Source of the DNA: Bacteroidales bacterium
Lineage (GTDB): Bacteria; Bacteroidota; Bacteroidia; Bacteroidales; UBA3824
DNA: 50,861 bases
Direction of reading: 5' to 3'
Assembly: GCA_024401025.1 (NCBI GenBank)
Contig: JAKSLV010000007.1
Coordinates: 1-50,861 of the forward strand
This document shows, piece after piece, positions 5,163 through 35,501 of this stretch (position 1 is its first letter; every line of letters starts with the position of its first letter). Both the position numbers and the translations under genes were made by a program. The notes beneath the pieces are model-generated. The model was not told where the DNA came from. It ran no database searches and worked only from the letters and a program-made list of their open reading frames with translations.

Positions 5163-8100
5163 TTATTTCTTGATATTAAAGCCCAGTACAGAAATGTCGT
5201 CGCGCTGTCCTGCGTCACCCATGAAGATGGTGATGTCGGAAACAATGCGTTTCCCCACCTCTGAGATTGCGGTTTGCTGGTTTTTGGTGAGTATGTTCAT
5301 GAATCTGGGCGATCCGTATCTTATGCGTTTGTCGTTGCACTGGTCTATGATGCCGTCGCTGAATTGTATTATCCTGTCGGCATATTCTATGACGAGCTCT
5401 TCCTGCTCGAAGGGTTTCTTGTTGAAAACCTCGCCGTTGATTCCGGTTTGCCTGCGGCTGCCTTTTAGTTTCAGCAGAGTGTTGTCGGCCATCTTGTGGA
5501 TGTATATCGTGCTGTCTGATCCCGCAAATGTAAGTTTTACGTTGTCGGGATTTTTGTCGAACTTGCAGATACTCAGCGCTATGCCATCGGTGCTCTGAAT
5601 GCGTTTCAGGTCCAGCATCTCCAAAAGCTGATTCTGAAGCTGCTCCAGAATATCCTTTGGCTCGGTTATCTTTCTCAGGCGGATGGTCTGCGATAGAAGG
5701 TCGTATCCTATGATGCTCATGAAAGCGCCCGGCACACCGTGACCCGTGCAGTCGGCCACAATGGTTAGGAACGATTGGTCGGAGAGTTTCTCCATCATGT
5801 AGAAATCGCCGCTCACGATGTCCTTGGGCCAGTGTATCACAAAGTGGTCTACAAACTCGGCAAACTTCTCGCTGGATGGCAGTATGGAGTTCTGTATACC
5901 GTTGGCGTATCTAAGTGACTGGTTGATAGTGATGTTCTGACGCTTTATCTGCTTGTATCCAATCTCCAGACGCTCGTTGATTATTTTCAGCTGACGGGTC
6001 TGGAACTCCATTTTGTCCTGGTTTCGCTTAAGGTCGGAATACGCTTCCACCAGTTTTTCGGCCTGCTGCATGCCTTCCTTTTCGGCCAGCTTCAGCTGAG
6101 TGATGTTGGTTTCGGTTACAATCCAGTTTTTAACGTCTTTCCCGGCTTCGAAAACCGGGTCAAGATGAGTTTGCGCATATACTCTGTGACCGTTGGGGCC
6201 TATGTGGATGGTCTCGTAGGAGGCGCGTTCCTTGTTGTCCTCGGCATTTTTCAGGATGTGGGCATTGTCGGGGCTTATGGCTTTCTGTATCTCGAAATAG
6301 TTGTTGCCGAAAGTGTTTTTGTATTCCTCGGCGGTGTATCCGTAAATGTTTGTGAACGAGTCGTTTTGCCATTGGAAACTTCCGTCGCCGTTAAGGATCA
6401 TTACCGAGTTGGTGTTTTTGCTGGCCACCAGCGACAGCAGCTTCAGCCTCTCGTTCTGCCTGATGATTTCGTCGTAGCGGTCGCGGGCCAGCTTGTCCAG
6501 ACGCTGATTCTCCTTTTTCAGGTGCTTGATTATCTTGTTTAGCGGTATTATTATTATTACTCCAAATGCCAGCATATAAAGCAGTATGGCCCACCATCTT
6601 AGGTATATCACCTGTTCTACCTCGAAATTGTATACAGCCTCGTTGGATACAATTCCGTAATTGTTGAGGGCCTTTACCCTGAAAGTGTAGTTGCCGGGTT
6701 TCAGCTGTCCGAACTCGTGATAATTCTCGTTGCTGTATGCCGACCATTGTTTGTCGCTGCCTTCCAGTATGTATGAGTATTTTATCTGCTCGCTGTTTTC
6801 GAAACATGACGTGGCATAACTGATTTTCAGCGATTTGATGCCAGATCCCAGATTGTCGCAAGCCTCAGGGCTGCTCTCGTAACTGTGTACATCGCTGTTG
6901 CCGAAATATTTCTCTCCCTTGAAAACCGAAGTGTCGTTCAACGAGATCTCAGTGATGAAAATATTGAAAGGATATTCGCCCGGCTTCTCGTATGGCTTGG
7001 CATTCAGGTTGTGTTTCAGCAGTCCTATGTTGGTGCTCAGGAACAGCAGCGAGTCGCGCAGGAAAACGTTGTTCACTATGTCTACCTTGGTCTGGAAATG
7101 TATTGTATCGAAGCTCTTGTCTTTCCTGTAGGAAATCACGCAGTGCTCGTTGGTGTTTATAAGCACGTCGCCGTTGTCGTTTAGCGGATATATCTCGGTG
7201 GCCTTGTATTGATTGATGAATCTGGTGAAAAGTTCTGATGTGTGCAGTTCTATGTCCTTGGCTATGAAGTTGATGTTCTCAGGAATTTCGGCCCTCCTGA
7301 TGCCTTTCTCATATACGTAGAGATACTTGTCTGTAACATTAAATTTGGTTTGGCGAAGTTCTTGTATTCCAATGTTCTCTCCTAGGTTAACTAAACTGAA
7401 CCTTTCGATGTTTTTGTCCTTGGGCACAATGTAGTAGAGTCCGTTGAAAATTGTTGAAACCCATATAGCGCCGTTGCTGCTTGTCTTTATTGTCCATATC
7501 GGGAAATCTATGCCCCTGATGTTTTTGCAGTTGCTTACCTTAAGGTTGTTGCCCTCTATTGCGTAGTCGGCAGTCATCAGGCCGTCGTATCCGCCAATTA
7601 TCAACTTGCCCGGCAGCAGACTGGATTTCGCTATGCTGTATATCTTGTTGGTGCTTAGCAGTTTGTAGGCGTCGTTGCCCTTTATCTCGTATAATCCGTC
7701 CATGGCGCAGGCCAGCAGATGATTGTCCATCACCTGAAGATTCCAGCAGATAATGTTTTCCTGACTGTTGTGGAAGTTAACTTTCTTGAATATTGTGTTG
7801 GATCCCGACGAGTTGTCGGCGGTGGCGGTGTATACGTCATTGAAAGTGGAGCAGTAGTATTGTCCGTTGAATTTCTCGAAACAGTAGATGTCGCCGCTCA
7901 TTCCCTGTCTTTCAGTGTAATACACTGTGGTGGTGTTTAGCTCTATCTTCACAAGGATAGAGTTTAGCGATGCCCAAAGGTTGTGCTTGGAATCGAAAAA
8001 CATCTTTCTTACATCTTCCAGCGGAAGTCCGCTTCCGTGATTCACGGTTTGGATGTTCTCGCCCTTTTTGTTGAAGATGTAGATTCCCTTGTTGGTGGAT

Positions 8101-8930
8101 ATTGCAATCTTGTTGAGAGTGGCGTCGTATTGGGCGTCGCGTATGTCGCTGTCGTTTAGGTCGTTGCTGGCCAGATTGATGGTTTGCGAATTCGACGCGT
8201 TTATTCTGCCTTTGCCGCGTATCAGCCCCTTGCTGCATGCTATCATCTTTTTTCCGCAGATTAGCGCCACGGTGTCGTTGCAGAGGTCCACAAGTTTTAT
8301 GTTGTCGCCCTTGGCTATTCCGAATTCCTTAAGGTTTATTATCTCGTTTATGGTTTTTCCGTCAAAACAATATCCTCTCAGGTCTTTGGTGAATATTATC
8401 GGAATGGTGTCGCAGCCTACTGACGCAATGATATTGTCAAGATTCTGTTTTTCAACTTTTTGGTAGTTGTATATGTAGATGTGGTTTTTGTCGGTAAGGT
8501 AAATTTTCTTGTTGCCTTCTATCAGGTTGGTTATATAAGTGTTTTTAAGGTCGGTGTTTTCGGTAATGTCGTTGTACACAGCCTTTCCTGTGCTGTCGAA
8601 AGTGTAGAATCCGTGGTCTACGTCGCCGCTTATCAGTAATTTTCCGTTGTTGAATTTAATGTGGTTGATTCCCGATCTGGATGGCGTGGGATAGAAAGTG
8701 TGGCCCTCTGAGTTCAAGATACAAATGCCGTCGGTGGTTCCCAGAGCTATGCATCCGTTTTGGTCTTCGCAGATATCATTTACGAACACCATGCGGCCAA
8801 ACTCGTTTACACCGTATTTTTTTATGTATGATGTTTCCTTGAAGATACCTTGCCCTTGGGCCATGGCGATTCCTTGCATCAGGATTAATGCCACCATAGG
8901 TAATAGTATCTTTTTTAGTGAGTTGAGCAT
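5163..8930 (-). CDS. Sensor SpoIIE-type (PP2C) phosphatase with beta-propeller, Y_Y_Y, TM and PAS domains
   Basis: The product has 1255 aa. A signal peptide (residues 1 to about 24) precedes a long periplasmic part resembling two-component-regulator propellers, then a Y_Y_Y-type domain (KYSYILEGSDKQWSAYSNENYHEF, about 715-770). One membrane helix lies near 777-800, followed by a coiled coil, a PAS domain (about 835-940), a second coiled coil, and a SpoIIE phosphatase domain (about 1020-1255). The phosphatase keeps the PP2C metal residues: SGDF, DCTGHGVPGAFMS, SDGIIDQ and QRDDISVLGF. It should sense an extracytoplasmic ligand and dephosphorylate a cytoplasmic Ser/Thr-phosphorylated partner, typically an anti-sigma-factor antagonist; no such partner is in the window. 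There is no histidine-kinase or HTH output. It lies just downstream of the frr terminator and has no recognisable promoter of its own. Confidence 0.9.
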   Translation of the reverse strand: MLNSLKKILLPMVALILMQGIAMAQGQGIFKETSYIKKYGVNEFGRMVFVNDICEDQNGCIALGTTDGICILNSEGHTFYPTPSRSGINHIKFNNGKLLISGDVDHGFYTFDSTGKAVYNDITENTDLKNTYITNLIEGNKKIYLTDKNHIYIYNYQKVEKQNLDNIIASVGCDTIPIIFTKDLRGYCFDGKTINEIINLKEFGIAKGDNIKLVDLCNDTVALICGKKMIACSKGLIRGKGRINASNSQTINLASNDLNDSDIRDAQYDATLNKIAISTNKGIYIFNKKGENIQTVNHGSGLPLEDVRKMFFDSKHNLWASLNSILVKIELNTTTVYYTERQGMSGDIYCFEKFNGQYYCSTFNDVYTATADNSSGSNTIFKKVNFHNSQENIICWNLQVMDNHLLACAMDGLYEIKGNDAYKLLSTNKIYSIAKSSLLPGKLIIGGYDGLMTADYAIEGNNLKVSNCKNIRGIDFPIWTIKTSSNGAIWVSTIFNGLYYIVPKDKNIERFSLVNLGENIGIQELRQTKFNVTDKYLYVYEKGIRRAEIPENINFIAKDIELHTSELFTRFINQYKATEIYPLNDNGDVLINTNEHCVISYRKDKSFDTIHFQTKVDIVNNVFLRDSLLFLSTNIGLLKHNLNAKPYEKPGEYPFNIFITEISLNDTSVFKGEKYFGNSDVHSYESSPEACDNLGSGIKSLKISYATSCFENSEQIKYSYILEGSDKQWSAYSNENYHEFGQLKPGNYTFRVKALNNYGIVSNEAVYNFEVEQVIYLRWWAILLYMLAFGVIIIIPLNKIIKHLKKENQRLDKLARDRYDEIIRQNERLKLLSLVASKNTNSVMILNGDGSFQWQNDSFTNIYGYTAEEYKNTFGNNYFEIQKAISPDNAHILKNAEDNKERASYETIHIGPNGHRVYAQTHLDPVFEAGKDVKNWIVTETNITQLKLAEKEGMQQAEKLVEAYSDLKRNQDKMEFQTRQLKIINERLEIGYKQIKRQNITINQSLRYANGIQNSILPSSEKFAEFVDHFVIHWPKDIVSGDFYMMEKLSDQSFLTIVADCTGHGVPGAFMSIIGYDLLSQTIRLRKITEPKDILEQLQNQLLEMLDLKRIQSTDGIALSICKFDKNPDNVKLTFAGSDSTIYIHKMADNTLLKLKGSRRQTGINGEVFNKKPFEQEELVIEYADRIIQFSDGIIDQCNDKRIRYGSPRFMNILTKNQQTAISEVGKRIVSDITIFMGDAGQRDDISVLGFNIKK

Positions 8931-21747: not shown

Positions 21748-24198
21748 ATGAAGAAGAAAGTATTCGAGGCCAAGGCCAAAGACCTTGTGGCCATCTATCA
21801 TAACGGAGCGCCATTGTATCAGCGCTACAGCCAGCTGCGCAACGTGCTCATGCCCCTTGGCGAGCAGTACGCCGAGCTTCTCTGCGAGCCTCAGATCATA
21901 GGCGACCGCATCATCTGGCACAGCCAGTATGTGGACAGTCCTGTGCCCATCACCGCGCTGCCCGATGCCGAGAAAGCCTCGGCCCAGGCCAGGGCCAACA
22001 GCATACTCTCCGAGATAAGCCGCCATTGTCAGCAGCTTAGGGCCGACGGACGCTCCGAGTACGCCAACGTTCTGGAGCAGGCCGTTCAGGTGCCCGATTA
22101 CGGCAGCATACTCTATCAGGCTGGCCGCATAGTGCTGGCTCAGTGGGGTTTTGCCTACACCGGCGTGGGCGGCTCGCAGCAGAGCATCCCCATACTCCAG
22201 GAGAAGATCCCTGTACACAAGCCTCAGGTTTCTGATGCTGCCCATATCGGCGTGCCAGTGCCGCCCTCGCCATCAGCGCCCAAGCCGTCATCGGCCCAGG
22301 TTTCCAAGGTGTCTGAGGCTTCCCCAGCAGCATCAGCCCCATCCGCACCCGTGCCGCCGCCTCCGCCATATTACCACAACACCGATACAGTATCCGCCGA
22401 TAAACCCCGCAAGGGCATGCCCGGCTGGCTATGGTTTGTGCTTGGAGCTTTGCTGATGCTGATACTTTTGCTGATACTGCGCGGATGCAGCGGATGCAAC
22501 GATGATGTGCCTGCATCAGACAACAACGGAAACCATAACGGCGGCGCCACCCCCGACCGCCCTTACGACGGCCCCGGCGACCCATTCTTCGACACCATAC
22601 GTCAGGTGCCGCCCGTGGACACCACCAAGATAATACACGACCCCGATGTGCCAGGCGACCGCCCTATCCTGAGCAACGCCGTAAACATTGCCCTCGACAA
22701 GGGCGTGGATACCAAGCAGTTCATCATAAGCCTCTCGCATAAATACCCCGACCACGTGGAGGTGGTGTTTGCTGATACCACCGTAAAGCTGCTGCAGGTG
22801 CGCGTGCCGGATGGCGGCTGGAAAGACTGGATGGATTCGCTGAAGGCCCTGCCCGAGGTAAGGCTGGCCTTCCCCAACTCGCTATTCAGCGAGAGCTCTA
22901 TGCCCGATCCCGGATTCTCCAATCCCAAGCAGTCGTGGTATTTCGACGACATTGAGGCCTTCGAGGCTTGGAAATACACCAAGGGCGACAGCAGCGTGAT
23001 AGTGGCCATTGCCGACAACTGTTTCGACCTTAGCCATCCCGAGCTGGCCGGAAAGATTGTGATGCCATACAACGTAAACACCGGCAACGACGACATCCAC
23101 CTTGTGCGCGACCAGGGCAACATGCACGGCACCCACGTGGCCGGCACTGCCGTGGGCAACAGCAACGATGGCGGTGTGTGCGGCATAGCGCCCAACTGCC
23201 GTCTGATGCCGATCCAGATAGCCGACGACAACGGCCAGATGCAGTCGATAAGCATTGTGGCGGCTGCACTCTACGCCATCCACCACGGCGCCGCGGTGGT
23301 AAACTTCTCGCTGGGAGCCTATTTCGGCGAGATTTCCCCAGCCGAGCAAAACCAGCTGATAACTGGCTACGGCATCGACGAGGCCAAGTTCTGGAACGAG
23401 CTGTATGATTTTGCCAACGACGAAAACTGCGTGTTTGTGCTGGCCGCCGGCAACGAGAACATCCTGGCCGGATGCGACCCCTTTGCGCGCAGCGGCAAGG
23501 TGCTGGTGGTGTCGGCATATCAGGACAGCCAGCGCAGCCCCAAGGCCGGATTCAGCAACTTCGGCGAATATTCCAACATATCAGCCCCGGGTGTTGAGAT
23601 ATATTCCAGCGTTCCGGGCGGCAGATACGATTTCCTTCAGGGAACATCCATGGCCGCGCCCATAGTTACGGGAGCCGTGGCCCTCATCAAGAGCAAGTTC
23701 CCGGCCCTGAGCGCATCCGAGATAGTATCGGTGATAAAGCAGAGCGCCAAACCGCTGGATTCGCGTCCGGCCATAGGTCCGCTGCTTCAGATTGCCAAAG
23801 CCCTTAAGCTGGCCTCCGACGGCGTGCTGATGGAGATTCCCGAGGATGCCGAGGACGCATCCTTCGCCGCTGGCAACTGGAGGTCCACCACCGACCTCCA
23901 CAACGTAGATTCGGGCATGGAGGTTAAGGTGCTCTTCCACATCAACGCCGACGGCACTGGCACAATAGAATACCGCGAGGCCAACGGCAACGTGTTTACA
24001 GCCCCGCTCTCTGTGGAGATGGACAACGGCACTCTGGTGATTACGCAGCTTCAGGAGGCACTTGGCGACCACGAGGGCGGATACGACCCCTGCGTGATAC
24101 GCGCCACACGCGATGGCGACGGCCGCGCGCTATGCCACGCCGAGTATCAGGACGCATCTCATGGCGCAGATTTCAACATGGTGAAGATTGTGGAGTAG
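21748..24198 (+). CDS. Membrane-anchored S8 (subtilisin-type) protease with N-terminal QWGF domain
   Basis: The product has 816 aa and no signal peptide. Residues 1 to about 140 form a domain shared with the next three genes, ending QWGF at 132-135. A Pro/Ala/Ser-rich linker (about 150-220) leads to one membrane helix (about 226-245, WLWFVLGALLMLILLLIL) followed by RGCSGC, then an exported catalytic part. The S8 triad is complete: Asp423 in VAIADNCFD, His463 in HGTHVAGT and Ser634 in GTSMAAP, with oxyanion Asn569 in LAAGNEN. A region of about 110 residues before Asp423 (FIISLSHKYPDHVEVVF...) may be a propeptide-like inhibitor domain, and a beta-rich tail follows the protease. Topology suggests a cytoplasmic QWGF domain coupled to a periplasmic protease. 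It is the first gene of a five-gene array and sits behind a bracketed promoter. Confidence 0.9.
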   Translation: MKKKVFEAKAKDLVAIYHNGAPLYQRYSQLRNVLMPLGEQYAELLCEPQIIGDRIIWHSQYVDSPVPITALPDAEKASAQARANSILSEISRHCQQLRADGRSEYANVLEQAVQVPDYGSILYQAGRIVLAQWGFAYTGVGGSQQSIPILQEKIPVHKPQVSDAAHIGVPVPPSPSAPKPSSAQVSKVSEASPAASAPSAPVPPPPPYYHNTDTVSADKPRKGMPGWLWFVLGALLMLILLLILRGCSGCNDDVPASDNNGNHNGGATPDRPYDGPGDPFFDTIRQVPPVDTTKIIHDPDVPGDRPILSNAVNIALDKGVDTKQFIISLSHKYPDHVEVVFADTTVKLLQVRVPDGGWKDWMDSLKALPEVRLAFPNSLFSESSMPDPGFSNPKQSWYFDDIEAFEAWKYTKGDSSVIVAIADNCFDLSHPELAGKIVMPYNVNTGNDDIHLVRDQGNMHGTHVAGTAVGNSNDGGVCGIAPNCRLMPIQIADDNGQMQSISIVAAALYAIHHGAAVVNFSLGAYFGEISPAEQNQLITGYGIDEAKFWNELYDFANDENCVFVLAAGNENILAGCDPFARSGKVLVVSAYQDSQRSPKAGFSNFGEYSNISAPGVEIYSSVPGGRYDFLQGTSMAAPIVTGAVALIKSKFPALSASEIVSVIKQSAKPLDSRPAIGPLLQIAKALKLASDGVLMEIPEDAEDASFAAGNWRSTTDLHNVDSGMEVKVLFHINADGTGTIEYREANGNVFTAPLSVEMDNGTLVITQLQEALGDHEGGYDPCVIRATRDGDGRALCHAEYQDASHGADFNMVKIVE

Positions 24199-24278
24199 AA
24201 TTTTACGCATTTTTGCCTGTTGTTACAGAAAAAAACACTAAATTTACAGCAAATTTCTAAAACACTTAAATACATAAA

Positions 24279-26948
24279 ATGAGTCAACCTATTATAACTA
24301 CAGATATATCGCAGATAAGGCCCGTTTTCGCACAGGGCGCCGGCGAGAATATCAAGAGATATACCCAGCTTAAGAGCATGTTTCAGCAAGGCAGGGAATA
24401 CAACGTACTGGCCGAGCCAATGCCCGACGGCGTAAACAAGATAACATGGCACACCGAGTTTGAGGGCACTCCACAGAGTTTCTCCAAACTTACCGACGAC
24501 GAGCAGATAGCAGCCAAGGGCCGCATCAAGCATCAGGTAAACAAGCTCTACAAGGCTGTCTTCAAGCAGCTGTACAAGGGCTCGATGAGCGATGTGGCTG
24601 ATATGTTCAAGATACTGGATTCGTGCATAGAGATTCCTGACTACGACAACATCTACCGCATACAGCGTCCCGACGGCAACAGCAGCTTCGTGATTATAAA
24701 GTGGGGTTTCACCACCGACGATTTCAACGCGCCCACCGGACTCATCAAGAAACTGGTGCCCACAAAGGTAGACACCGTAAAGATAAAGGTGATAAAGAGC
24801 AGCAAGCCTGCCGCCAACGAGCAGGTGTCAGTGGTATACAATGGTCAGACTGCGCCCCTCACCACCGACGGCAAGGGCTACATATACATGGAGGACATCC
24901 CTCTCGGCGACAAGTTCTCGGTTTTTGCCGACGGCAAAGACAACATCAAGGACTACGTATGCGACGGCAGCGACGAATACCATTACCTGATAGGCACACG
25001 AACCAGCGACATGAACTTCCTTGTGCACGATGCCAAGGGCGTGCCTGTGGCTGATACCGAGATATCATTCACATACGACGGAATCACATATTTCGAGACC
25101 ACCGACAGCCAGGGCCGCATAATACTCCGCGACATCCCCGAGGGCACCGAGGTGGTATGCCGTCAGCGCAACATTTCCAACCACTTTGTCTGCAACCCCG
25201 CCACCAGCGTATACGAGTTTGTGGGCGTGCGTCCCGTAGCCGAGGTGGATGTGGCCGTAATGGGCGACAACGGCGATCCCAAGCCGGGCATCGACGTGCT
25301 GTTCCAGTATGCCGACAAGCAGATAACCCTCTCCACCGACCGCAACGGCCGTGTGTCCATCGACAACATGCCCCCCGACACCGAGGTAAACATCACATGC
25401 TCGGGCAGCGGATATCAGGACGCCAGCGCCAAGCTCTTCACTCACGAGGGCCTCAACATGGCCGAGATAAAGCTCCGCAAGGTTTCTCAGAACGGATGCA
25501 TGACCATCAGGGTGGTGGACAACACCGGAAAACCTATAGTGAACACTCTGGTGCGCTGCGAGACCGAGGATTTCAAGAGCGAATATTACACCAACGAGAA
25601 CGGCGAGATAGCCCTCGACAAGGTAAACTTCAACAGCAACGTGGTTTGCACCCAGATAATCAACGGCCTGGGATCACACCGCCACGCCTTCATATTCTCC
25701 AATGCCTCAGAGGTATACATCCTCAAGGGCATGAAGATAATATCAGACATCACCGATCTGGAGATCCACGTTGTCACCAAGCAGAAAGAGGATGTGCCAA
25801 ACCTGCGCGTAACCATCGACGACGGCCACAATGTGCTTAACCGCATCACCGACCGCAACGGCATGATCCACGTGGAGGGTCTGGCTCAGGGCAAGACATA
25901 CACCCTCACCACCGAGTATTCGGGCAAAACCACCGAGGTGAAGTATGTTCCGCATCAGGCCAAGGAGAGCCTCACCGTAACAGTGGGCCGCAACAACATC
26001 GGCTTCCTTTTGTGGCTGATACCGCTTATATTGCTGCTTGGCTGGCTCTGCGTGGCATATCTGGTGCCATGGATTGTTCAGGTGATGGACAAGCCTCTGC
26101 TGAAGACCGAGAAGAAGATTACAATCCACATGGTGGATTCGGAGAAGTCAACAGCCATTGGTGGTGCCATCGTAACCATCATGAACAACGGCGTGGCTCT
26201 CTGCGATACGGCCGACGCATCAGGCGCCTGCCATTTCACCATCGTGGACCCAAGTTCCGACACTGTGGCAGTGAAAGTATCAGCTCCCGAGTATCAGTCT
26301 TTTGCTGCTGATGCCTACCTCTACCGCGCCGACACCACATACTCTATGGTATTGGAGCCAAAGGGCCTTAACCTCGACATCAGGGACGAGAAAACCGGAA
26401 ACGCCCTCTCCGGAGCCAAGGTTCACGTGGAATACGAGAAAACCAAGCTCGACGTGGAGACCAATGCCGACGGCAAGGTATCGCTGCGCGACGTGCCTAT
26501 GGACGACAAGATGCAGGTGAAGGTGGTGGTGAACGCCGAAGGACACAAGGAATACGTTGCCAAGTTCCTCTACGTGCTCAACAAGACCCTGCTGATACCT
26601 GAGAAATCGCTCGACGTGCGCGATATTCCTATCGACTGCGGCTGCACCATCAAGAGCGACGGTTTCCACTCTACAATACAGACCGTGAACATGAAGGAGC
26701 CTAAGGGCAAGTTCGTTATCGGATACGACACATTCACCATCCCCGACGAGATCATCATATACAAGGGCCCGGCATCAGAGATCTCCGACGACAAGATTAT
26801 ATTCCGCACCAACGGCTTCGTAAAGGGTCCATACAAGTATGCGGTAATCAACTACGAGGCTCCCGACGGCATCATCACCGTACGCGTGAACGGCGGCGAC
26901 GACAGCCAGACCCAGTGGTATGTGGTGGTAAAGTGTCCTACCAAGTAG
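24279..26948 (+). CDS. QWGF-domain protein with about seven CnaB-like repeats and a central membrane helix
   Basis: The product has 889 aa. Residues 1 to about 145 repeat the cluster's N-terminal domain (YNVLAEPMPDGVNKITWHTEF ... CIEIPDYDNIYRI ... KWGF at 141-144). Five beta-sandwich repeats follow (about 163-570), each with the CnaB/CarboxypepD_reg pattern (T/S)D-x-x-G-x-(I/V)-x-(I/L)-x-x-(I/V/M)-P: TDGKGYIYMEDIPLG, TDSQGRIILRDIPEG, TDRNGRVSIDNMPPD, TNENGEIALDKV, TDRNGMIHVEGLAQG. A membrane helix lies at about 572-600. Two more repeats (TADASGACHF, TNADGKVSLRDVPMD) and a Cys-containing C-terminal domain follow. There is no signal peptide, so the first five repeats should be cytoplasmic and the last two periplasmic. 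The gap to the protease gene is 80 bp, with only a weak internal promoter-like sequence. Confidence 0.85.
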   Translation: MSQPIITTDISQIRPVFAQGAGENIKRYTQLKSMFQQGREYNVLAEPMPDGVNKITWHTEFEGTPQSFSKLTDDEQIAAKGRIKHQVNKLYKAVFKQLYKGSMSDVADMFKILDSCIEIPDYDNIYRIQRPDGNSSFVIIKWGFTTDDFNAPTGLIKKLVPTKVDTVKIKVIKSSKPAANEQVSVVYNGQTAPLTTDGKGYIYMEDIPLGDKFSVFADGKDNIKDYVCDGSDEYHYLIGTRTSDMNFLVHDAKGVPVADTEISFTYDGITYFETTDSQGRIILRDIPEGTEVVCRQRNISNHFVCNPATSVYEFVGVRPVAEVDVAVMGDNGDPKPGIDVLFQYADKQITLSTDRNGRVSIDNMPPDTEVNITCSGSGYQDASAKLFTHEGLNMAEIKLRKVSQNGCMTIRVVDNTGKPIVNTLVRCETEDFKSEYYTNENGEIALDKVNFNSNVVCTQIINGLGSHRHAFIFSNASEVYILKGMKIISDITDLEIHVVTKQKEDVPNLRVTIDDGHNVLNRITDRNGMIHVEGLAQGKTYTLTTEYSGKTTEVKYVPHQAKESLTVTVGRNNIGFLLWLIPLILLLGWLCVAYLVPWIVQVMDKPLLKTEKKITIHMVDSEKSTAIGGAIVTIMNNGVALCDTADASGACHFTIVDPSSDTVAVKVSAPEYQSFAADAYLYRADTTYSMVLEPKGLNLDIRDEKTGNALSGAKVHVEYEKTKLDVETNADGKVSLRDVPMDDKMQVKVVVNAEGHKEYVAKFLYVLNKTLLIPEKSLDVRDIPIDCGCTIKSDGFHSTIQTVNMKEPKGKFVIGYDTFTIPDEIIIYKGPASEISDDKIIFRTNGFVKGPYKYAVINYEAPDGIITVRVNGGDDSQTQWYVVVKCPTK

Positions 26949-26971
26949 TATTTTCATAAAGCATCAATTCT

Positions 26972-28165
26972 ATGAACGAGATTCTTCTTACCAAGGAAAC
27001 CAGAAACCAGCGCTACCTGCTGGGCAGTCCTCAGAGCGCTCCCGACATCTTCAGGCAGATAAGGGGCACATTGGCCGAGAGCCAGCTGTGGACTCTATTT
27101 GCCGAGCCAGTGGTGCTGGAGGGTGGCGCGCGCCTTGCCTGGCGCAGCCCCATACCCGGCAAGGCCACTTGCTATCAGCGCCTGAGCAACGAGGACAAGG
27201 GTTTTGCCAAGTCGGAGCTGAGGCGCGAGGTGTTGCGCCTGCAGGAAATGGCCAAAACCTTCAACGACCCGGCTCTGGAGGAGCTGCTGGCCAACTGCAT
27301 AGAGGTTCCTGATGCCGACAGCCTGTATATAGTGGATGGCGGCGCCAAGAAGAATGTGGTGATAGCCCAGTGGGGTTTCGTGATGGACATGCCGGGCGCC
27401 GAGAAGGGGCTCATCAACAAGTTCATAGAGGCCAGGAAGGTCCCCATGCAGTTCCACGTGTATTTCACCAAGGACGGCAAGAGGATTCCCGGAGTGCCTG
27501 CCCCTGATACCGAGGTGGTTTTCTACATGCAGGACAAGCCTTTTGCCACCGTGCGTTCCGATGCGCAGGGCAACATCGTGCTGGAGGGCGTAAAGGAGGA
27601 GGCCAAGGTATCCGCCTACGATCCCGACGACAAGGCGCTGGCCAATCCCCAGAACTATGTGTGCTACGAGTTTGGCATATACGATGTGTTTGTATCGCCC
27701 AAGGGCAATATGGAGTTCCGCATTGTGGACCAGAACGACAATCCGCTGCCGGGCATGGAGTTTGTGCTGGAGCGCGATGGCAACAGCGTTAATATGACAT
27801 CCGACGCCCAGGGCAGGATAGTGCTCAGCCCCGTAAAGGAGGGCGCCCTGGTGGATGTATACCAGTATTCGGGATCGTCGCAGGGCAAAAACAACTTCAA
27901 CTCGTTTGTCTACGACCTCCATACCGAATTCTACAAGATTGTGGTGCAGGTAGAGGCCCCGCCGGAGCCGCCTCAGCCTCAGGGCCCCGAGCTTGGCGAT
28001 GTACATATAAAGGTGCTCGACCACAAGGGTCAGCTGGCCCCTGATGCCACCGTTACGGTGTGGTATCTCGATAAGAAAGAGGTCTACACATCCGATGCCG
28101 AGGGTTTCATCCACATTGCGGGAGTGCCTGTGGGCACCAAGTTCAAGGTGGAGGCCAAGAAATAG
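26972..28165 (+). CDS. Soluble QWGF-domain protein with CnaB-like repeats (copy A)
   Basis: The product has 397 aa with no signal peptide or membrane helix, so it is predicted cytoplasmic. Its N-terminal domain (LLGSPQSAPDIFRQIRG, LFAEPVVLEGGARLAWRS, NCIEVPDADSLYIVDGG, QWGF at 133-136) aligns along its whole length with those of the flanking genes and is followed by GAEKGLINKF. Three beta-sandwich repeats come next (about 160-240, 243-325 and 348-397), with SDAQGNIVLEGV, SDAQGRIVLSPV and SDAEGFIHIAGVPVG. A short Pro-rich hinge (EAPPEPPQPQGPE) precedes the last. The gene begins 23 bp after the previous stop, so co-transcription is likely. I know of no assigned function. Confidence 0.83.
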   Translation: MNEILLTKETRNQRYLLGSPQSAPDIFRQIRGTLAESQLWTLFAEPVVLEGGARLAWRSPIPGKATCYQRLSNEDKGFAKSELRREVLRLQEMAKTFNDPALEELLANCIEVPDADSLYIVDGGAKKNVVIAQWGFVMDMPGAEKGLINKFIEARKVPMQFHVYFTKDGKRIPGVPAPDTEVVFYMQDKPFATVRSDAQGNIVLEGVKEEAKVSAYDPDDKALANPQNYVCYEFGIYDVFVSPKGNMEFRIVDQNDNPLPGMEFVLERDGNSVNMTSDAQGRIVLSPVKEGALVDVYQYSGSSQGKNNFNSFVYDLHTEFYKIVVQVEAPPEPPQPQGPELGDVHIKVLDHKGQLAPDATVTVWYLDKKEVYTSDAEGFIHIAGVPVGTKFKVEAKK

Positions 28166-28198
28166 ATTCGCTTATAACCCATAATACCGATTATAAAA

Positions 28199-29359
28199 AT
28201 GAATGTGATAGCAACCAAGGATATAGCATTGCTGAGGTATCTGCTCGGCAGCCCGGTAACAGCCCCCGAGCTCTACCGTCAGATAAGGGCATCGTTCCCC
28301 AACGGCGAGGTATACAAATTTTTTGCCGAGCCTATAGTTTTGGAGGGAGGGCTTAAGCTTGCGTGGAGCAGTTCCTATGCCGGCAAGGCTGTATCGTATG
28401 GCCGCCTAAGCGAGCAGCACAAGAGCATGGCTCAGGATATGCTCAACAAGGCCATATCCGACCTCATGGAGGCCGTTAAGACCTTCAACGACAGCAACCT
28501 CCAGTCTTTCATAAGCAACTGCATAGAGATACCATCGCTCGACAGCGTGTATATAGTGGATACCAACGGCGAAAAGCACGTGGTGGCCACTCAGTGGGGT
28601 TTTGTGCCTGATACTCCGGGTGCCGAGAAGGGCCTGCTGATAAAGTTCCTCAACATCAAGAAGGTGCCTATGCGTTTCCAGGTGGTATACAGCGACAATA
28701 TGGATCCGGCTCCTGGCGAGGACATCATTTTCGAGGTGGATGGCAAGCCAATGCAGGGCAAGAGCGATATCGACGGCGTTATTGTGCTGGAGAAGATTAA
28801 GGAAGGCGCTTTCGTGAAGGCTTTCGAGGCTTCTGATGCCGAGAAAATCAACTCGCAGAACTATACCTGCTACGAGGACGAGCAGTATACCATAAAGGTT
28901 ACTCCAAAGGGCGATATGAAGTTCCAGGTAGTGGACCAGTTTGGAAATCCCCAGCACAGCCAGAATTTCCAGTTCGAATACGACGGCCAGAAGATTTCCG
29001 CCGTATCCAACGCCGACGGCATCATCACTCTGGAGCGCATCAAGAGCGGCACACGCGTGGAGGCGTATCAGCCTCAGGCCGATGGCAGCAGAAAATACGA
29101 GAATGTATACCTCTTCGACCGCTTGGTGAACCCATACCGTATTGCCATAGAGGTGGAGGTGGCCCCCGAGCCAGAGCCTCCAAAGACCCACAACATGCGT
29201 TTCAAGGTGGTGGACGACAAAAACAACGTGGTAAAGAGCGCCGAGATCACCGTGAAGTATCTTGGCAAAACCGAAACCCTGATGACCGACGCCGAGGGCT
29301 ATGCCGTGCTAATGGATGTGCCTGTAGGCACCGTGGTGGAGGCCAGGGCCAAGAAATAA
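28199..29359 (+). CDS. Soluble QWGF-domain protein with CnaB-like repeats (copy B, tandem paralogue)
   Basis: The product has 386 aa and is collinear with the preceding gene: LLGSPVTAPELYRQIRA, FFAEPIVLEGGLKLAWSS, FNDSNLQSFISNCIEIPSLDSVYIVD, QWGF at 132-135, GAEKGLLIKF, then three beta-sandwich repeats (SDIDGVIVLEKI, SNADGIITLERI, TDAEGYAVLMDVPVG) with the hinge EVAPEPEPPKTH. It is a clear tandem duplicate of 26972-28165, diverged mostly on repeat surfaces. It is predicted cytoplasmic. The 33-bp gap upstream and 43-bp gap downstream fit one operon. The paired soluble copies could form a heteromeric adaptor with the membrane-anchored members; this is inference. Confidence 0.83.
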   Translation: MNVIATKDIALLRYLLGSPVTAPELYRQIRASFPNGEVYKFFAEPIVLEGGLKLAWSSSYAGKAVSYGRLSEQHKSMAQDMLNKAISDLMEAVKTFNDSNLQSFISNCIEIPSLDSVYIVDTNGEKHVVATQWGFVPDTPGAEKGLLIKFLNIKKVPMRFQVVYSDNMDPAPGEDIIFEVDGKPMQGKSDIDGVIVLEKIKEGAFVKAFEASDAEKINSQNYTCYEDEQYTIKVTPKGDMKFQVVDQFGNPQHSQNFQFEYDGQKISAVSNADGIITLERIKSGTRVEAYQPQADGSRKYENVYLFDRLVNPYRIAIEVEVAPEPEPPKTHNMRFKVVDDKNNVVKSAEITVKYLGKTETLMTDAEGYAVLMDVPVGTVVEARAKK

Positions 29360-29402
29360 GCTTTGCCGATTTTTTTATAAACCAAATAATCACTGATACA
29401 AG

Positions 29403-31118
29403 ATGGAAGGACATAACACCTTTGTGAATGACGATCAGGAAGAATATGTGGTAAGGGTGGCCGGGCCAAAGTACCGCTGGATGTGGTTTCTTTTGCTTCT
29501 GCTGTTGCCTTTGCTGCTTCTTCTCAGGTTCAGCAAGGATATCACTGTTGTGGCTTACGATAATTTTTCGAATAATAATCTATCAAATGTAAAAGTTGGT
29601 TTAAAATTTGTAGATTATTCGATTGTAAAAACAAATCCTCTGCGATTTTTTGTTGCCGATAGTGTAAATCTTTCGGGTGTTACTTCACAAGATGGCGAGG
29701 TTGCGTTTACTGATGTCAACTACTCGTTGTATCAGGTGATTTTCCATTCTGGTCACGAGGCCGAGATCACTGCCGAGGGCGGATGTCTTGCATCCGATAC
29801 AGTCCGTACATTGTTCAGTACTTTAGGTACAGCATTGCCGTACCGTTTGGGGCTCAATAAGGCCCGTGTAGACCTTGTTTTCCTGGTATTGGATAGTGAT
29901 GACAGACAGCCACTTGCATCTGCTGATGTTGAAGTGATGGTTGATGGTAATGTTAAGAAATTGTTAACAGACCCATCGGGCTATGTTTCTGTGCCTGGAA
30001 TGGAATTATGCGGCAATGTTGATATCAACGCTCAGATGGACGGCTACCTTGGCGACACCATTGTTTCTGATATGGAAACGGCGCTTCAGGGCGAGCACAA
30101 CAGAACGCTGCTCCTGAAGCCGGGACGCGGCGTGGTTTCGTTTACTGTTCAAGACCTTGAAAATCAGCTGCCTATACCTAATGTTGCTGTCAGCATGATG
30201 ATAGACGGCAATACGGTGAACTGTGTTACCAACACCAACGGCGTTGGCAAGGGATGTTTCGAGGATGTAAAGGCCAATCTCCAGTTCCAGCTGGATCTAA
30301 AGCGCGTGTCTTATTTCGATACTTTAACTCAGCAATACAAAGTATCTGGGTTTGAGCGACTTTCGGAACGTGAACGCACTTTCCGGATGCGGCCTCAGAA
30401 AAACAGCCTGATTTTCCGAAATATAGATTCGCTTAACAATTTGCCAATTTCGGGCGTAGCAAACGAGGTTTTCATCAACGGAAATCCTGTTGGAACCATA
30501 TATTCCAACGCTCAAGGCTGTTTTACAATTGGCAATGTAGCCCCCGGCGACGAGATTTTGATAAAATCCACACATGTAAATTACAAATTCCAACAAGTAA
30601 AGCGTAGTGGTTCGGATGTAATCGGAAATAATCAGTATAAGCGTGATGTAAAGATGCAGGCCAAGCGTTTTGCCGCCAGCAAGCCAAATCCTCAGCGCAA
30701 CTGCGGAGTACATTTCTCCGGCACTCTGCTAAGCGATGTGGCTGTGGGCGGACACATCTCGAAGATATACGAGCCCGACAAGTATGGCGAGTATGTTGGC
30801 GATGGCAAGTACGCCAACAATCAGGCTGCTTTCCCCAAGGCCGTGCAATACACTTTCGATGCCATAGCCGTAGACAAGGGCACACGCCTGAAAGTGTATT
30901 CCAAGCCTAATTTCCAGGGCGAGCTTCTGCTGGATGTAAAAGGTCCATACCTTATTAATAATGTGAAGTGGAAAAACGAACCCCGCATCTCCAACTTCCT
31001 CACCAAGACATTCAGCCCCGAGCTGGAGGCCAACTATCCTCCATCGTGCCGTCATTGGAGCGAGAGCAATATGAACGATTGGGATTACGGCTCTGTGATA
31101 ATCACATGCGATAAATAA
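29403..31118 (+). CDS. Membrane-anchored repeat protein with beta/gamma-crystallin-like C-terminus
   Basis: The product has 571 aa. It lacks the QWGF domain. A 25-residue cytoplasmic start is followed by a membrane helix at about 26-41 (WMWFLLLLLLPLLLLL), placing the rest outside the cytoplasm. CnaB/CarboxypepD_reg-like repeats fill about 45-440 (TSQDGEVAFTDVNYS, TDPSGYVSVPGMEL, TNTNGVGKGCFEDV, SNAQGCFTIGNVAPGD). The C-terminal part (about 450-571) has GTRLKVYSKPNFQGELL, close to the beta/gamma-crystallin Y-x-x-x-N-F-x-G motif. Internal stretches near 29540-29700 and 30300-30640 are much more A+T-rich than the rest of the cluster, which suggests mosaic ancestry. It is the last gene of the array, ending at the terminator 31138-31180. 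Confidence 0.8.
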   Translation: MEGHNTFVNDDQEEYVVRVAGPKYRWMWFLLLLLLPLLLLLRFSKDITVVAYDNFSNNNLSNVKVGLKFVDYSIVKTNPLRFFVADSVNLSGVTSQDGEVAFTDVNYSLYQVIFHSGHEAEITAEGGCLASDTVRTLFSTLGTALPYRLGLNKARVDLVFLVLDSDDRQPLASADVEVMVDGNVKKLLTDPSGYVSVPGMELCGNVDINAQMDGYLGDTIVSDMETALQGEHNRTLLLKPGRGVVSFTVQDLENQLPIPNVAVSMMIDGNTVNCVTNTNGVGKGCFEDVKANLQFQLDLKRVSYFDTLTQQYKVSGFERLSERERTFRMRPQKNSLIFRNIDSLNNLPISGVANEVFINGNPVGTIYSNAQGCFTIGNVAPGDEILIKSTHVNYKFQQVKRSGSDVIGNNQYKRDVKMQAKRFAASKPNPQRNCGVHFSGTLLSDVAVGGHISKIYEPDKYGEYVGDGKYANNQAAFPKAVQYTFDAIAVDKGTRLKVYSKPNFQGELLLDVKGPYLINNVKWKNEPRISNFLTKTFSPELEANYPPSCRHWSESNMNDWDYGSVIITCDK

Positions 31119-31137: not shown

Positions 31138-31180
31138 AACGCACAATTCCAAATTGCTGGAATTGTGCGTTTTGCTTTTT
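31138..31180 (+). terminator. Bidirectional terminator between the S8/QWGF cluster and lepA
   Basis: A perfect 13-bp stem (31138-31150 with 31159-31171) has a T-rich run after it on the plus strand and an A-rich run before it, giving a U tract for minus-strand lepA transcripts as well. Confidence 0.92.
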
Positions 31181-33101: not shown

Positions 33102-35501
33102 ATGAGCCTCCTGTCATACCAGCTTCTCCGCAAGAATGTGGAGCACCGCCTGGGAATCACCATTTCCAGCGCCAGGGAGTGTGTTGCCTTGTCGCAGGCG
33201 CTTCTGGATGTGGTTCAGGCCAAGGTGAGCATCACCACCATCAAGAGGTTCTGGGGTTTGGTGAGCTCTGATGTAAAGCCCTCCAAGTTTACCCTAAATG
33301 CGCTGTCACGATACGTGGGTTATGTGGATTTTCCTGATTTTGAGCAAGGCATCAGGGCTGACGATACTTCCGATTCGTCGTCCACGTGGGAGAATTACCG
33401 TTCCATAGCCCGCGAGATTAGCGAGTTTAGTCTCAACTGCCTAAAGTCGCGCATGGGAATGCAGCGCTATTCGTCTACCCTGAGGCGCGATTTCACAAAG
33501 AATTTTTTCGACAGCTTCAGGTCCAGCGGCAAGGTGGCCACGGCCATGGTGGCGCCATCGGGCTGGGGCAAGTCGGTGAATGTGGCCCACATCGTTGACG
33601 AGTATTTCATAGCCGGAGGCTCGCAGTGCTATGGCGATTTGCTGTTTTATTTCGATATGAAGGCCATTGTGGGATTCTCGCGCTACACGCAGCTTCTGGA
33701 GGAGCTTTTCATATCTATGCTGGGCGGATCGGGCAATTACGACTTCAAGTCGCTGTTTCTGCGTCATCCCAATTGGCGCAAGGGCGATGTGTACATCGTG
33801 ATAGATTCGGTGAGCACCGAGGAGCAGCTGAGCAAGATTATTGCTTTGGTGAACAACTACAGCATGGAGGGCTGGCTCCACATAATCTTTACGTGCAGGC
33901 CCACCCTGTGGATTCTGGGCAGCAAGAGCATTCCGCTTGAGAGTCAGCATCAGTTCCATAACCTAGACTGCTCTGCCAACGAGACCACCTACTGCAATGT
34001 GCCCACCATGAGCATTGGCGAGCGTCTGCTGATGCTTTTCCACAGCAACACCATGAACGTGTATTCCTTCAGGCTCCTGTGCAGGAACGAGGTAAACACT
34101 CTTTTGTCGATACCGTCCCACATGAGCATACTTCAGGACCAGACAATGAGGGGCAATTTCTCTGTGCTGGACCTTCTGTGGGCTGTCTTCAAGACCAAGG
34201 TGGCCGAGCGAAGCTCCAGGCTTAGGCTTTCGGGTTTCTTATCCAACATGCTGGAGGCCACCAATTACGGCCGCATCAGGAATGTGAGGGTAGATAGCAA
34301 GCTTTTCATGGCGCTGCAGAGCTATTCTGACGTGTTTGAGATTTTCAGCGCATTGGGAGTCATCAAGATAAAGTTTTTCGACGACGCCCACATGGATGCC
34401 GGCGTGATGCTTACATTCAACGACGGACATTTCTTCGAATTCATATTGTTCTCGTATTGGCTCAGCAACAACGGATACATCGTGGATATGGCTCTGATGG
34501 AGAGCATATCAGCTTTCTATAATGATGACGAGCATCTTAAGCTGAAGGTGCTGAAGTGGATTTTCAGGTATGCCTTCCGCGAGGGTGTTGTTGACTGCGT
34601 ATCAGGGGCTTTCGATTTTGCCGAGAGGGCTTTTTCTGATACGCGCTATGTGTTTGAGTTCCGCAATCTTGTGTGCTCGCTCTATGCCAGCCACCCCGGC
34701 ATCAGACACCTGATGATGCGCAGCGATGCCGAGCTTATATATTATCTGTGCAACTATTCCGACGTGGACCATCTGGATTCGTCGCTGAGGCATGTGATAG
34801 AGATGATTCTGGAAAGGCAGTCGTGCCGGGATTATCATCTGAGGGCCTACATGGTGTACATATATTCGTATTTCATAGATTATGACAAGGCCGGATGCGA
34901 GAGGGTTTATGCCAGGCTTTCGGAATTCCTGAAGACCCACAAGGAACATTCCACACTGGATTATCTTGTGGAGTTTGCCGCGCAGATGATGATGGAGGCC
35001 ATAGAGACCAACAGCGTATCGGTGGAGGTGCTCCAGTATGTGGAGGAGTATCTATACAAGAGTTTTGCCGATGCCAATCTCTACGACGAGCAGCTGCTGA
35101 GCGTGGGTTTTATCATGATAGACGTGCTGGTGCTTACAAGAAACTACGCTGTCTGCAAGAAACTCACCGACATCATACTCCGCAAGTGCGACGGCGTGGT
35201 ATCAGGCTACGTATACAATATCGCCATAATGATGAACATATCGTCGCTGCTGCATGCCGGACGCCTGCGCGAGGCCTGCGATGCCGCAATGATGATAGAT
35301 ATGGAGAAATGGTTCAGGCTGCTGCCCGATTCTCATTTCTACTTTTTCTCGATGCGCCTTGGCAATCTGCTCTATCTGCTCCTGAAGGCCGGATACAATC
35401 TGCCCGACGGCATTCCATTGAAGGTGGTGGAGAGCATGCGCGCCAGTATGAGGTATCATTTCCGCCACACGCGCATCCAGGAGCGTTTTCCCGGCGATTA
35501 G
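33102..35501 (+). CDS. STAND-like NTPase with N-terminal HTH-like segment and helical repeat C-terminus
   Basis: The product has 799 aa, with no signal peptide. Residues about 10-85 (ISSARECVALSQALLDVVQAKVSITTIKRFWGLVSSDVKPSKFTLNALSRYVGY) resemble the helical domain that precedes signalling NTPases and kinases in Bacteroidota (I-S-x-x-T-(I/L)-x-R-x-x-G ... P-S-x-(F/Y)-T-L-x-x-(L/F)-x-x-Y-(L/V)-G). A Walker A motif APSGWGKS is at 151-158 and a Walker B-like VYIVIDS, with Asp235, follows. The remainder is helical (about 400-799) and could be TPR-like. This fits a cytoplasmic STAND/NACHT-type switch ATPase; neither effector nor ligand is evident. It lies beyond lepA from the S8/QWGF cluster, so a link to that system is only a possibility. 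Its stop overlaps the convergent gene's stop. Confidence 0.75.
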   Translation: MSLLSYQLLRKNVEHRLGITISSARECVALSQALLDVVQAKVSITTIKRFWGLVSSDVKPSKFTLNALSRYVGYVDFPDFEQGIRADDTSDSSSTWENYRSIAREISEFSLNCLKSRMGMQRYSSTLRRDFTKNFFDSFRSSGKVATAMVAPSGWGKSVNVAHIVDEYFIAGGSQCYGDLLFYFDMKAIVGFSRYTQLLEELFISMLGGSGNYDFKSLFLRHPNWRKGDVYIVIDSVSTEEQLSKIIALVNNYSMEGWLHIIFTCRPTLWILGSKSIPLESQHQFHNLDCSANETTYCNVPTMSIGERLLMLFHSNTMNVYSFRLLCRNEVNTLLSIPSHMSILQDQTMRGNFSVLDLLWAVFKTKVAERSSRLRLSGFLSNMLEATNYGRIRNVRVDSKLFMALQSYSDVFEIFSALGVIKIKFFDDAHMDAGVMLTFNDGHFFEFILFSYWLSNNGYIVDMALMESISAFYNDDEHLKLKVLKWIFRYAFREGVVDCVSGAFDFAERAFSDTRYVFEFRNLVCSLYASHPGIRHLMMRSDAELIYYLCNYSDVDHLDSSLRHVIEMILERQSCRDYHLRAYMVYIYSYFIDYDKAGCERVYARLSEFLKTHKEHSTLDYLVEFAAQMMMEAIETNSVSVEVLQYVEEYLYKSFADANLYDEQLLSVGFIMIDVLVLTRNYAVCKKLTDIILRKCDGVVSGYVYNIAIMMNISSLLHAGRLREACDAAMMIDMEKWFRLLPDSHFYFFSMRLGNLLYLLLKAGYNLPDGIPLKVVESMRASMRYHFRHTRIQERFPGD

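Follow-up and report, generated by a model that had tools for sequence, protein, structure and literature searches.

What is a subtilisin-like (S8) protease doing at the head of a row of genes, three of which encode proteins that share its N-terminus, and to which system do these genes belong? The locus that raises the question lies at positions 21748-31118 of a 50,861-nucleotide stretch (contig JAKSLV010000007.1, hereafter the window) of a Bacteroidales genome (GCA_024401025.1, an assembly that is 75% complete), in which five co-oriented open reading frames (ORFs), here P1 to P5, are separated by intergenic gaps of 23-80 bases (Table 1). A first-pass annotation of the sequence had proposed this cassette as a candidate undescribed system built around an unrecognised domain. 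Our analysis leads to a different answer: the domain is almost certainly derived from SrfA, judging from profile matches, and on balance the cassette is likely to be the envelope-facing SrfA half of a Bacteroidales SrfABC-type complex. Genomes compared are labelled G and loci read L, each with a number; G000 is the window genome.

The shared N-terminal domain and the protease

P1-P4 share an N-terminal domain (N-domain) of ~145 residues, with pairwise homology spanning the N-terminal 150-160 residues. The alignment of these four consecutive, co-oriented gene products, first noticed by eye, is borne out by BLASTP, with E values of 3.5e-7 (P1-P3), 1e-8 (P1-P4), 5e-14 (P1-P2), 5e-17 (P2-P3), 3e-18 (P2-P4), and 4.9e-57 (P3-P4); the alignment scores lie 12-76 standard deviations above those of 500 shuffles, none of which scored as high. 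Twelve columns are invariant across the four N-domains, among them the E-P, W (W57), P (P116), and W-G-F positions singled out in the first-pass annotation. The domain is absent from P5, whose alignment score against it is shuffle-like.

Pfam, PHROGs, and PADLOC offer no family for the N-domain. The NCBIfam profile for SrfA (NF040486), however, matches P1 (residues 10-244, E 5.9e-31), P2 (E 1.5e-6), P3 (E 1.3e-10), and P4 (E 4.2e-6), and the idea of an undescribed family was rejected on the strength of these matches. P2-P4 each align to a single stretch in the N part of the profile, whereas P1 covers positions 9-242 and 319-428, the latter being the C-terminus of SrfA (E 1.1e-8). P1 is thus the only cassette protein that matches the membrane-helix region and C-terminal domain of SrfA, and because the two matches flank the S8 domain, we read it as an SrfA with a protease placed between helix and C-domain (S8-SrfA). 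In a six-frame search of the window genome with the SrfA profile (E<=1), five of six matches fall inside the cassette; the same search gave nothing in 14 control genomes. The sixth match is weak (G000:C176:12178-12666, minus strand; SrfA positions 162-326) and lies beside a predicted Ser/Thr kinase domain; both apparently fall in one 631-residue frame, perhaps with a P1-like linker-helix layout.

The Pro-rich linker, membrane helix (from residue ~223), and complete S8 protease that had been read from P1 are all present. The Peptidase_S8 domain scores 152 bits in Pfam against a cut-off of 21.8 (E 2.8e-44), and the catalytic triad and oxyanion asparagine (D423, H460, S634, and N569) are retained in every row that could be read (21 of 22) of an alignment of S8-SrfA proteins (the row for L073 ends at a contig end; L074 and L133 represent a single gene, leaving 20 distinct genes). 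The subtilase is apparently active. Its alignment with Tk-subtilisin begins at residue ~377. Mycosins (TIGR03921) share the triad and domain, with a profile match at E 8e-37, but P1 falls far below their cut-off (127 vs 278.75 bits) and is flanked by SrfA-derived regions. Mycosins are also anchored, with an extracytoplasmic protease.

Of the remaining features proposed for the set, the CnaB/CarboxypepD_reg-like repeats are recovered with Pfam in P2, P3, and P5 as CarboxypepD_reg/SpaA-like domains, while those of P4 score below the Pfam cut-offs. A simple hydropathy scan likewise divides what had been proposed as membrane proteins: helices are present in P1, P2, and P5 and absent from P3 and P4, so that the repeats of the latter two are probably cytosolic. 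The C-terminal part of P2 has no family match, and a beta/gamma-crystallin-like C-terminus, considered for P5, found no support in searches. One P5 homologue (L074:10688-12808, plus strand) ends in a vWA domain, indicating that the tip of P5-type proteins varies.

Distribution and the link to srfB and srfC

Within the genus of the window genome, N-domain genes and S8-SrfA were both found in 19 of 19 genomes, the window genome included (the S8 gene of G005, missed by blastp, was counted from phmmer). The first-pass annotation suggested a neighbourhood survey as a check, and this shows that the genes do travel together: P2 and a soluble N-domain gene are adjacent in all 16 genus genomes having both on one contig, and the fifth gene comes next in 14, being cut by a contig end in three. 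S8-SrfA lies immediately upstream of P2 in 14 of the 19 (in G001 a small ORF lies in the 817-base gap), at a distance of 3.5 kb in G018, and on a separate contig in G003, G006, G008, and G017.

The evidence that the cassette belongs with srfB and srfC comes from its co-occurrence with these genes and its contiguity with them in relatives. In a sample of 295 genomes of the order, SrfB is found in 17 and the N-domain in 19, with both in 14 compared to 1.1 expected (Fisher p 2e-17, treating the genomes as independent though they are related). Three SrfB genomes lack an N-domain match at threshold (G044, G126, and G228), of which G044 and G228 nonetheless carry an S8-SrfA-type gene beside srfC; a readable gene of this type is present in 14 of the 17 SrfB genomes, that of G283 being cut by a contig end. 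Among 395 genomes of the phylum, two have an SrfA match; one is the window genome, and the other is the only one with SrfB. In the genus itself, SrfB (PF07520) is found in 15 of 19 genomes and SrfC (Virul_Fac, PF10139) in 14 of 19, and of the 18 genomes besides that of the window, 16 carry at least one of the two genes, on contigs separate from the cassette. In seven loci read (L116-L122), they form an operon of srfB, a gene of ~340 codons, and srfC.

The genus cassette thus differs from a SrfABC operon in not adjoining srfB and srfC, but in other families the two are contiguous. In G101 (L177), an srfB truncated at the contig end is directly followed by the ~340-residue gene, srfC, S8-SrfA, and a homologue of P2; srfB and srfC precede S8-SrfA, with or without the intervening gene, in L064, L072, L130, L131, L133, L141, and L177. 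The SrfC P-loop is present in 16 of 16 rows, representing 15 distinct genes (L066 and L132 contain one and the same SrfC). SrfB, which we take to be actin/Hsp70-like, gave a weak FtsA match (E 0.004) in one of two sequences scanned.

The layout of P1 is also found in relatives. L069, L076, L141, L145, and L177 each show two SrfA profile stretches, the C-part is matched in L074 as well, and phmmer with the P1 C-part finds L069, L076, L141, and L177. One scan of genome contigs yielded 3 loci. A protease-free form of 310 residues, with N-domain and C-part, is encoded at L065:934-1866. The richest expansion seen is that of L064-L065 (G034:C685), where seven N-domain genes occupy ~20 kb beside srfB-srfC, together with three P5-like anchored proteins. 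P2-like N-domain genes are also found in L070, L071, and L075 (G062, G172, and G266), in genomes without SrfB; the neighbours of L070 include AMP-binding, acyltransferase, CheR, and deformylase genes.

A possible envelope complex and its alternatives

How might such a cassette work together with SrfB and SrfC? The three Xenorhabdus proteins, SrfA, SrfB, and SrfC, form a single complex and co-precipitate (PMC6950479). SrfA has the order N-domain, linker, membrane helix, and predicted C-terminal barrel, and in P1 the subtilase sits between helix and barrel. A calycin/avidin-type fold is a candidate for the C-domain of P1. We tentatively propose, giving the details somewhat less than even chances, that the N-domains are cytosolic and dock on SrfB and on SrfC, a P-loop nucleoside triphosphatase (NTPase), either directly or via each other; further copies of the domain would bring in a second membrane protein (P2) and the soluble P3 and P4, with the anchored repeat protein P5 alongside. 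Assembly or remodelling of the membrane complex would fall to the NTPases, and the cleavage of envelope substrates by the periplasmic subtilase would be governed by the state of that complex or by ligands bound outside, at the barrel and repeats. A topology with the N-domain inside and the protease outside is plausible for P1, and the positive residues that precede the P1 and P5 helices fit, by eye, an inside N-terminus.

Several observations weigh against assigning the cassette to a SrfABC-type complex or against this topology. No SrfA match attains the NCBI cut-off of 150 bits (P1 scores 108.3, the best relative scanned 134.6); accordingly, we call P1-P4 SrfA-derived and not SrfA members by the NCBI rule. 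The cassette also differs from SrfA in the inserted protease and in the several paralogous N-domain proteins. Distant S8-SrfA genes score poorly with the profile (E 0.08 for L072; none at 0.01 for L130 and L131), and the S8 genes beside srfC in G028 and G228 lack a detectable N-domain. The N-domain occurs without SrfB in G000, G062, G172, G188, and G266 (the gene in G062, G172, and G266 being P2-like), and two SrfB genomes, G126 and G191, show no S8-SrfA in the loci read. The window genome itself, at its 75% completeness, has no srfB or srfC match, and its tig-clpP contig has other genes at the place where G002, G004, G005, and G009 keep srfB/srfC. Finally, the positive-inside rule, applied by eye, opposes the proposed orientation of P2, which has four lysines after its helix, although P2 has no apparent signal peptide.

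The lack of a match in the window genome could mean that this species truly lost srfB and srfC, leaving a stand-alone envelope protease complex in which the P1 N-domain was freed from its old partners. The P1 N-domain is indeed divergent: its mean identity to nine genus orthologues is 32%, compared to 63% among those nine, while the figures are 62 vs 70 for the S8 domain and 57 vs 60 for the whole of P2. This pattern may reflect loosened constraint or recombination. However, three of 19 genus genomes lack both genes (G000, G003, and G010), close to the ~2.4 expected from completeness values, and the P1 N-domain of G010 is very close to that of the SrfB-bearing G005. We consider the loss unlikely; a genus-wide loss was rejected, as congeners have these genes on other contigs.

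About equally improbable, in our estimate, is that the repeat proteins and the protease build or trim a cell-surface structure for adhesion or surface motility. The repeats are prealbumin-like and one P5 homologue carries a vWA domain; in Salmonella, a srfC mutant swarms poorly despite normal swimming, and swarming is the only trait reported to be affected in srfB or whole-operon mutants (PMC4219756). P3 and P4, on the other hand, appear to be cytosolic, which counts against such a structure.

Less likely still is that the genes form a DO-GTPase/HSP70-type system for immunity or conflict in which the protease is the effector. Such systems share with SrfABC the theme of a GTPase, an HSP70-like protein, and membrane parts (Kaur 2020, PMC7159879), and in some sister loci a DO-GTPase-like gene follows S8-SrfA after a four-helix membrane protein (L074:3850-5190, L130:1373-2767, L131:357-2252, and L141:7439-8860); genes for nSTAND1 and SIR2_2 proteins also lie near the SrfABC/S8-SrfA locus of G073 (L066:3521-6381, minus strand). 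Nevertheless, only the L074 gene has a direct Pfam DO-GTPase match (that of L130 has none at 0.01), and a Pfam scan of 20 window proteins (ORFs up to 41204) found no DO-GTPase or GAP1 gene. PADLOC, run on six window proteins, returned only generic subtilase and weak IetS matches. Unlike a mobile defence gene, the cassette is kept throughout the genus, with a DUF5686 gene on its upstream side in 11 of the 19 genomes. 'Srf' is absent from the main text of Kaur 2020 (PMC7159879).

A secreted toxin directed at animal cells, as claimed for Xenorhabdus SrfABC, which is reported to be cytotoxic to cultured cells (PMC6950479), is very improbable here, as the genes are present in every genus genome, P1, P2, and P5 have membrane helices while P3 and P4 lack them, and the function of SrfABC is called unclear in PMC3608642.

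We thus return to the SrfABC-type complex as the reading we favour. SrfABC has been labelled a virulence factor or toxin, though its function is described in print as unclear; the same source places srfB/srfC of host-associated Deltaproteobacteria near kinase-pathway genes of the type VI secretion type (PMC3608642). A form kept throughout one gut-associated Bacteroidales genus, with a conserved protease site by a membrane helix and shared SrfA domains, points instead to a role in the cell's own envelope and suggests an envelope-spanning machine rather than an injected virulence factor only. The protease also gives this role an assayable enzymatic activity, which makes the open question of the function of SrfABC testable. 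We found no literature combining srfB, srfC, and "Bacteroid-", and no description of a protease-bearing SrfA in the titles and abstract openings searched, which cover the subscription literature thinly.

For the fold of the N-domain, the structure prediction and Foldseek comparison suggested at the outset gave, respectively, an AlphaFold2 model of the P2 N-domain (predicted local distance difference test score 77.8, from 11 sequences) and weak matches. The predicted succession of helices and strands appears to resemble that of a kinase core between beta3 and the DFG site, and hhalign places WGF on DFG in register, at a score of 17.9 compared to 19.0, 18.8, and 18.4 for the best of 21 control families. 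A weak Foldseek match to kinases comes from a comparison made without a control model, and kinases are common in the PDB. None of 11 N-domain members has a Pfam kinase match, and the N-domain, SrfB, SrfC, and the C-termini of P2 and P5 have no solved relative at a usable E value. It is a speculative suggestion, and one we would not bet on, that the domain is a stripped, dead kinase-like fold, with QWGF at the DFG position, acting as a hub for the SrfB/SrfC NTPases; SrfABC would then be a widespread inside-out envelope machine, whose hub the Bacteroidales copied onto membrane and soluble proteins and whose SrfA gained a periplasmic subtilase, placing proteolysis across the membrane under the control of a cytosolic NTPase switch.

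Paralogues, cassette layout, and neighbouring genes

A tree of N-domains (76 hits, 75 rows, excluding hits with E > 1e-6 or < 100 residues; the program warned of long branches) separates the S8-type domains (21 rows) from all others (54 rows) with support of 100/99, and the split between the paralogues therefore probably predates the genus. P3 joins P4 (100/94). P4 is closest to the standard soluble partner of the genus, with a mean identity of 58% to the genus soluble protein compared to 41% for P3, which represents an additional, diverged copy of P4.

Table 1. Features of the P1-P5 cassette in the window
Feature	Position	Strand	Description
P1 (S8-SrfA), 816 aa	21748..24198	+	SrfA N part and SrfA C part flanking Peptidase_S8
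P1 SrfA N-domain	21748..22197	+	QWGF at residues 132-135
P1 Pro-rich linker	22198..22410	+	Approximate bounds, from sequence
P1 membrane helix	22414..22497	+	Residues ~223-250, hydropathy scan
P1 putative pro-domain region	22648..22911	+	Residues ~301-388, where a subtilase pro-domain would sit, from position alone
P1 S8 protease domain	22912..23817	+	D423, H460, N569, S634
P1 SrfA C-domain	23836..24156	+	Predicted beta-barrel
P2, 889 aa	24279..26948	+	SrfA N-domain, repeats, helix at ~572, further repeats, C-terminal part
P2 SrfA N-domain	24279..24758	+	KWGF
P3, 397 aa	26972..28165	+	SrfA N-domain and prealbumin-like repeats
P4, 386 aa	28199..29359	+	SrfA N-domain and repeat-like region
P5, 571 aa	29403..31118	+	N-terminal signal anchor and CarboxypepD_reg-like repeats, without SrfA domain
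Terminator-like hairpin	31138..31171	.	Stem of 14-15 pairs in the P5-lepA gap, with T-rich flanks on either side

The hairpin between P5 and lepA has the longest stem among 11 sites, a number at the level of shuffles (mean 9.2), and the promoter and terminator counts show no excess over shuffles.

Two other genes of the window deserve mention. That at 33102-35501 (plus strand) encodes a 799-residue protein with a Walker-A-like GWGKS motif and, by eye, a NACHT/STAND-like appearance; it has no usable match in Pfam, NCBIfam, PHROGs, or PADLOC, and was rejected as part of the cassette because no relative was found among the neighbour loci compared. The other, at 5163-8930 (minus strand), encodes a 1255-residue protein that combines Y_Y_Y and PAS domains with a SpoIIE phosphatase domain: a hybrid sensor that ends in a phosphatase and not a kinase.

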